Positions 41,957 to 48,543 of a DNA stretch of 64,000 nucleotides are shown piece by piece (the stretch's first letter is position 1; each line of letters starts with the position of its first letter). The DNA lies in assembly GCA_005222965.1 (NCBI GenBank), contig NJBG01000001.1, forward strand, positions 613,533 to 677,532, in the 5' to 3' direction. The DNA is from Candidatus Woesearchaeota archaeon B3_Woes (lineage in GTDB: Archaea > Nanobdellota > Nanobdellia > Woesearchaeales > B3-WOES). The notes beneath the pieces are model-generated. The model saw only the letters and a program-made list of their open reading frames with translations. It was not told the DNA's origin and ran no database searches. The position numbers were made by a program, and so were the translations under genes.

Positions 41957-42305
41957 ATAGGGTAAGAGTAAGCCACCTTCTGTAGGAACCTTTGTGTTGT
42001 AATATTACAACGATGCTCCTTCTTAGCATTTAACTAAGCGTTTAAAACTTGCACCGACCAGGTCTCATCGTTTCATCCTTTCGTTTAAAGACGTCAACAG
42101 GTTAACTCGCCCCTGTTACCAGGAGTTTCACCGCATCATCCCATTTTAAACGTGGTTTCGTTTCTGTATGGTTGCCATCCATTACTGAATGAGGTCTTTC
42201 ACCACTGGCCATATTACTTAATTATATTAAGTAATGGTGGGCGGACTTTCCTCAGCAAATCAATACAGAAGCATCAATTCACCGTCAGCTAAGTTCTTAC
42301 CCTAT
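41957..42305 (-). ncRNA. rnpB: RNase P RNA (archaeal)
   Basis: This is the catalytic RNA of RNase P, which matures tRNA 5' ends. On the minus strand the 5' end ATAGGGTAAGA and 3' end TCTTACCCTAT form the P1 helix (42295-42305 with 41957-41967). The conserved GCTGAGGAAAGTCCGCCC (CR-I) follows about 50 nt in, and the terminal CAGAAGGTGGCTTACTCTTA (CR-V) is near the 3' end. The length is about 349 nt. A TATA-like stretch (TTTTTAAAAGG, about 42325-42335) lies about 25 bp before the 5' end. Confidence 0.95.
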
Positions 42306-45015: not shown

Positions 45016-45069
45016 TTTATTGATAGAGATATTGATAAGAATTTTTATATTAAAAGAATATATTTAAAA

Positions 45070-45114
45070 CACCACCGCCCGGATTCGAACCAGGATATCC
45101 TTGCGGAAACCAGC
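45070..45114 (-). pseudogene. Intronless 3' half of tRNA-Ser
   Basis: On the minus strand this reads GCTGG, TTTCCGCAAGGATAT, CCTGG, TTCGAAT, CCGGG, CGGTGGT and G: positions 39 to 73 of the tRNA-Ser encoded at 48370-48543, differing only at positions 41 and 72. It lacks the T-loop intron that the full gene carries. No 5' half is adjacent. It is probably a truncated duplicate left by integration or recombination at the tRNA; a split-tRNA 3' half is a less likely alternative because C72 is mutated. Confidence 0.75.
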
Positions 45115-45158
45115 TTACATGCAAATGTTTAAGACTTTACTTATTTTAAAATTAGAAT

Positions 45159-48369: not shown

Positions 48370-48543
48370 CGCCACCGCCCGGACTTTCGATGCAAAGCAT
48401 TGAAATTTTCTTCGCTTATTCGAACCAGGATATCCTTGCGGAAACCGGCTAACCTGATATCCTATGTGGATTAACACTCAAGGCTTACGCTTCTAACCCA
48501 TACGAGCTAGAATCGGCGCAGTACCAGATTGTGCCACGGTGGC
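48370..48543 (-). tRNA. tRNA-Ser (anticodon TGA) with three BHB introns
   Basis: The acceptor GCCACCG pairs with CGGTGGC, with discriminator G as in archaeal tRNA-Ser. Three insertions must be removed. Intron 1 (48485-48513, 29 nt, position 29/30) contains TTCTA/TAGAA. Intron 2 (48451-48476, 26 nt, position 37/38) has central helix CTTG/CAGG. Intron 3 (48384-48418, 35 nt, T-loop, position about 59/60) has inner helix GCGAAG/CTTTGC. The four exons give a perfect anticodon stem CCGGC/GCCGG with loop CTTGAGA, variable arm TTTCCGCAAGGATAT and an 84-nt tRNA; 84 plus 90 intron nt equals the 174-nt span. Confidence 0.9.

Follow-up and report, generated by a model that had tools for sequence, protein, structure and literature searches.

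The minus strand of window positions 48370 to 48543 (the window being the whole 64,000-nt stretch that was analysed) very probably carries the genome's sole UCA-reading serine tRNA gene, with a 174-nt precursor in which three introns would be cut by the splicing endonuclease EndA at bulge-helix-bulge (BHB) motifs and the exons then ligated. The initial annotation had proposed this span, a mature tRNA of 84 nt and the lengths and positions of the introns, and all of these were right, as a splicing program found the same three introns unprompted; it had given no strand. Its wider claim, that a DPANN-like genome holds a functional tRNA-Ser(UGA) gene interrupted by three introns of BHB type, was also supported, the splicing itself being predicted from sequence. 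Three-intron tRNA genes are known in archaea (PMC4390854; PMC8450103), for example tRNA-Glu(UUC) of Pyrobaculum calidifontis and tRNA-Pro(UGG) of P. islandicum (PMC4390854; PMC4090602), and introns at 29/30, 37/38 and 59/60 have each been described in archaea (PMC4090602). What appears to be new is the Woesearchaeota-type lineage: a search of the open-access literature turned up no account of Woesearchaeota tRNA introns or of BHB motifs from DPANN archaea.

Transcript position p of the gene corresponds to window position 48544-p, and all its parts lie on the minus strand. Exon 1 (48514-48543; transcript 1-30) covers tRNA positions 1-29, that is, the 5' strand of the acceptor stem, the D-arm and the first three anticodon-stem bases, and is followed at 29/30 by intron 1 (48485-48513; transcript 31-59; 29 nt). 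Exon 2, GCCUUGAG (48477-48484; transcript 60-67), covers positions 30-37 and holds the anticodon UGA, and intron 2 (48451-48476; transcript 68-93; 26 nt) lies at the canonical position 37/38. Exon 3 (48419-48450; transcript 94-125) runs from position 38 to T-loop position 59, intron 3 (48384-48418; transcript 126-160; 35 nt) interrupts the T-loop at 59/60, and exon 4 (48370-48383; transcript 161-174) supplies positions 60-73 with the discriminator G73. Removal of the three introns left a perfect 84-nt tRNA with consensus features, which scored 30.5 in a tRNA parse, and a TATA-like TTTATAAATA was found approximately 30-40 nt upstream of the gene. The locus was not called by ARAGORN or by Rfam RF00005, because of its introns. 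We also ran a BHB-guided splicer, which enumerates BHB introns and scores the product as a tRNA without being supplied with the junctions. Its top solution consisted of exactly these three introns and scored 32.6 at beams of both 300 and 3000, and the runner-up scored 26.0 (beam 300) or 27.0 (beam 3000). A wide beam is needed, as a beam of 150 missed the three-intron solution and yielded a two-intron parse.

Orthologues were gathered by DNA search of relatives together with a 16-mer pattern search. The orthologous gene was found in nine other genomes, each with at least one of the introns and at most all three, at matching positions. All three are present in G011, G270 and G349, which belong to three further families of the order, so the complete set is kept in four families. 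The mature tRNA was approximately 85% identical on average over the ten orthologues, and the introns approximately 58-66%. Every junction also has a natural intronless counterpart, in G095, in G001, in a fragment within the window or in the five orthologues from which intron 3 is absent. In G095, a two-intron relic of the gene, truncated after the variable arm (L145, 1448-1664), is directly followed downstream by an intact intronless tRNA-Ser(UGA) whose exons match it from the D-arm up to and including the variable arm; the junctions of introns 1 and 2 can be read directly from this pair, and the arrangement suggests that the introns were lost when the gene was replaced. G001 (L036), the only genome of the same family, lacks introns 1 and 2 and has intron 3. 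Duplicated tRNA ends were also seen near some orthologues: a short 5' end about 65 nt upstream of the gene in G270 (L152), and a 3' end about 48 nt downstream of it in G350 and G351 (L156 and L157).

We took as a BHB motif a 4-bp central helix with 3-nt bulges cut after base 2, and as strict (hBHBh') the series outer helix, 3-nt bulge, 4-bp helix, 3-nt bulge and inner helix. All three junctions sit in a BHB or relaxed BHB motif. Intron 3 fits the strict form (outer helix 4.5, inner helix 5.5), with bulges AA^U/AG^U, the central helix UUCG/CGAA and the T-stem as outer helix. Intron 2, with bulges AG^U/UU^A and the central helix CUUG/CAGG, is strict or nearly so, the anticodon stem becoming its outer helix after intron 1 exits, but it has no good ungapped inner helix (-3), and this weakness counts against the splicing model. 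Intron 1 has bulges CG^A/AA^G, the central helix GCGC/GCGU and the inner helix UUCUAGC/GUUAGAA, and its outer helix is absent (-3), which also speaks against the model. The bulge cuts given by the initial annotation for introns 1 and 2 (CG|A and AA|G; AG|T and TT|A) were correct. Folding the precursor, a check proposed with those cuts, gave -63.1 kcal/mol against a mean of -48.7 kcal/mol for dinucleotide shuffles (z = -3.65), none of the 200 shuffles being as good, and the minimum-energy fold already displayed the motifs of introns 1 and 3. The motifs were also conserved. Pairs of the central helix were kept in 36 of 36 cases for intron 1 and 34 of 36 for intron 2 (nine genes each; G350 and G351 have one mismatch each in intron 2, a further point against the model), and in 19 of 20 for intron 3 (five genes), compared with 22, 24 and 15 in the best of 3000 mononucleotide shuffles. 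The inner helix of intron 1 kept 50/54 pairs in nine orthologues despite sequence change (shuffle maximum 35), and the outer helix was missing in 9/9 orthologues, which makes this a relaxed HBh' motif.

In the pathway that we propose, tRNA-Ser(UGA) would be transcribed from the TATA promoter into the 174-nt precursor, EndA would excise the three short introns at their BHB motifs, and the exons would be joined by RtcB, the archaeal tRNA ligase. Intron 3, with a complete motif on an intact T-stem, could leave at any time. The motif of intron 1 would be ready in the precursor fold, and the anatomy of the gene suggests that intron 1 leaves before intron 2, because intron 1 splits the 5' strand of the anticodon stem, which is the outer helix of intron 2. 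Adjacent tRNA introns that must leave in order are known (PMC8450103).

The enzyme is the less settled part of this model. One EndA gene was detectable in the genome, encoding 194 aa with PF02778 and PF01974, and most relatives tested, including the complete G011, also had a single one. Its neighbours were from Woesearchaeota and 'Nanoarchaeia' MAGs. Among 80 homologues, of 175-263 aa, and the EndA itself, none had an insertion at the site of the Crenarchaea-specific loop (CSL) that carries a lysine in the crenarchaeal alpha subunit; the catalytic Tyr, His and Lys were conserved in at least 97% of the 81 sequences, and a RGxKPGxDHA loop adjoining the catalytic histidine was nearly invariant. 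An AlphaFold model of the G011 homologue (L089; pLDDT 85.9) was closest to the alpha4 subunit of Methanocaldococcus jannaschii (1a79; TM 0.86/0.90), likewise the two-domain product of a single gene. The EndA type, which the initial annotation had asked to be checked, is thus that of a single two-domain gene, with N-terminal and catalytic domains and no second subunit gene found, alpha4-like and unlike any broad type described so far. Nor does its length fit an epsilon2 enzyme, a three-unit protein of approximately 390 residues.

According to a review, only (alpha-beta)2 and epsilon2 EndA efficiently remove introns with relaxed motifs, and alpha4 is narrow, as published for M. jannaschii too (PMC6379350). 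A classical alpha4 enzyme is therefore not expected to cut intron 1 (PMC6379350), yet this genome needs the relaxed HBh' cut. The earlier claim that the introns imply an endonuclease of broad specificity stood for intron 1, which demands relaxed recognition because it lacks the outer helix in every orthologue, but not for introns 2 and 3, which might suit a narrow enzyme. It follows that the specificity of this EndA is wider than expected, or else that a small divergent partner was missed. For the first we put the chance at somewhat less than even: a homotetrameric alpha4 EndA lacking both the CSL and the ASL may remove relaxed (HBh') and T-loop introns throughout the order. The lysine of RGxKPGxDHA might replace the loop lysine, which is only a suggestion. 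If the alpha4 enzyme is indeed broad, it would be an exception to the rule that efficient cutting of relaxed motifs is confined to the (alpha-beta)2 and epsilon2 types.

The other possibility, which we consider rather unlikely, is that the gene is spliced by an EndA of the Nanoarchaeum kind, an (alpha-beta)2 heteromer, with a short divergent structural subunit that escaped the searches; with such a subunit the alpha4 puzzle would disappear. The best PDB sequence match of the EndA was the catalytic subunit of the N. equitans (alpha-beta)2 enzyme (3iey_A), and among the beta chains of Crenarchaeota there are very small ones (2zyz_A has 93 modelled residues), which gave no sequence match to it. 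Profile searches, for which crenarchaeal beta chains may be too divergent, found no separate beta subunit: PF01974 and PF02778 each had one above-cut-off match in this genome and in G011, and PF02778 had one in G351. But the N. equitans beta chain was recognisable from this EndA at 4.6e-16, the EndA retains the full N-terminal domain that the N. equitans alpha chain lacks in the match, and the closest fold is the alpha4 subunit named above. The proposal that the subunit type of EndA and the variety of introns evolved together can be tested here directly, since one small enzyme and one 174-nt substrate suffice.

A partial 3' copy of the gene lies in the same orientation 3.3 kb away (45065-45121, minus strand; mature positions approximately 39-82, 98% identical). 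It is contiguous across the site of intron 3, and direct repeats that abut in it are separated in the gene by 48384-48417. We regard it as highly improbable that this fragment is a working 3' half of a split tRNA, ligated in trans to the 5' portion of the transcript made from the gene so that intron 3 is bypassed. It still pairs with the 5' exon of the gene via G-U pairs and seems to retain part of the end of intron 2, but its partner strand for the central helix is CATG rather than CAGG, which loses one pair, and no separate 5' half, as a split tRNA with complementary leaders would have, was found nearby or elsewhere in the genome. It looks like a footprint of recombination or integration. 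The disruption model for tRNA-Thr of Caldiarchaeum subterraneum (PMC3293823) likewise involves a partial direct repeat of a tRNA near an intron-bearing tRNA gene, but there the fragment is 5' and here it is 3', and here no recognised integrase was present among the three genes between the repeats (a PEP-utiliser mobile domain protein, a histidine phosphatase and an unknown protein).

The gene itself is most likely alive and essential, because it is the sole full copy found, no other UCA-cognate tRNA was detected, UCA is used and a TATA-like box is present. An intact tRNA-Ser(UGA) elsewhere had been named as a sign that this gene is dead, and the genome search for one returned the 3' fragment only. 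The remaining serine tRNAs found had the anticodons GGA, CGA and GCU, none cognate to UCA, which was the commonest serine codon in six ORFs of the window (93/263). That the gene is a decaying pseudogene, with the fragment or another tRNA serving UCA, is accordingly very hard to maintain: a partial copy does exist and a truncated copy adjoins an intact one in G095, but here the exons are perfect, no further full copy was found and the three introns persist in four families. Nor do we believe that the intron spans arose in assembly or are random insertions into a fortuitous tRNA-like sequence. The draft genome does consist of 4 contigs, of which C4 resembles contamination, but the locus lies within a 1-Mb contig and its orthologues in nine other genomes refute this reading.

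Introns of this kind are common in the lineage. In this genome, where the tRNA census was partial, at least six further tRNA genes had a T-loop intron at 59/60, namely tRNA-Val(UAC), Ala(UGC), Ala(GGC), Asp(GUC), Pro(UGG) and Ser(GCU), and other non-canonical introns were found at 53/54 (Asn), 28/29 (Arg UCU) and 30/31 (CAU) and in the D-arm (Trp), the Pro and Trp parses being less secure. All 6 matches of a T-loop intron pattern in this genome fell in tRNA genes, against 1 match of the control, and the places were verified one by one. When such a catch-all pattern was run over 353 genomes of the order, its reversed control did just as well in many of them, so it was used in this genome only. 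In the complete, one-contig genome of G011, just 14 tRNAs passed the Rfam cut-off, and the splicer found 59/60 introns in ten more tRNA genes. Thus the claim that three introns are unusual in DPANN fails for this order, in which G011, G270 and G349 share all three and non-canonical introns are many in this genome and in G011. The design of the T-loop intron is that UUCR of the tRNA forms a helix with a YGAA that the intron supplies immediately ahead of the 3' bulge. As nearly all tRNAs contain UUCR, few tRNA genes could not accommodate such an intron, which accounts for its presence in many tRNA genes of the lineage. This distribution suggests that the T-loop intron moves between genes; the T-loop introns of tRNA-Ser(UGA) and of a different serine tRNA of G019 are alike by eye (GCTTTGCATYGAAAG). 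Two introns stood out by their size, a very short one of 14 nt in the T-loop of tRNA-Ala(GGC) (L160, C1:733041 region) and an unusually long one of approximately 86 nt at 37/38 of tRNA-Glu(CUC) (L159, C1:730669 region).

Multiple introns per tRNA had been said to be known mainly from Thermoproteales, and the literature agrees, adding other Crenarchaeota. As here, a single tRNA of Thermoproteales may contain as many as three BHB introns, at the canonical site and elsewhere, but the host here is a Woesearchaeota-type DPANN archaeon, whose EndA lacks the Crenarchaea-specific loop of the crenarchaeal (alpha-beta)2 enzyme. ARMAN-1 and ARMAN-2 (Micrarchaeota; PMC4033280; PMC12397907) are also ultrasmall archaea with non-canonical tRNA introns, but their epsilon2 EndA is built of three units (395 residues in the PDB chain) and carries an ARMAN-specific loop, and the two-domain EndA described here has no such insertion. 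Thermoproteales-like saturation of tRNA genes with introns has thus also arisen in Woesearchaeota-type DPANN archaea. Most of the affected genes escape general tRNA models, as the 14 tRNAs that pass in G011 indicate, so tRNA counts used as a measure of genome completeness can mislead.

Some further RNA features were noted. The 6.3-kb contig C4 (G000:C4, L001) carries a Lys-Glu-Val-Thr tRNA cluster, some members with encoded CCA, unlike the remaining genome, and is probably bacterial contamination. A hairpin-rich repeat of approximately 75 nt lies beside tRNA-Arg(GCG) (L025, ~1400-1500) and tRNA-Val(GAC) (L012, ~1590-1680), and at tRNA-Arg(GCG) it separates a 19-nt 5' tRNA fragment from the full gene. 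Within the window, the archaeal RNase P RNA (41958-42304, minus strand; 125 bits) has extra insertions relative to the model.
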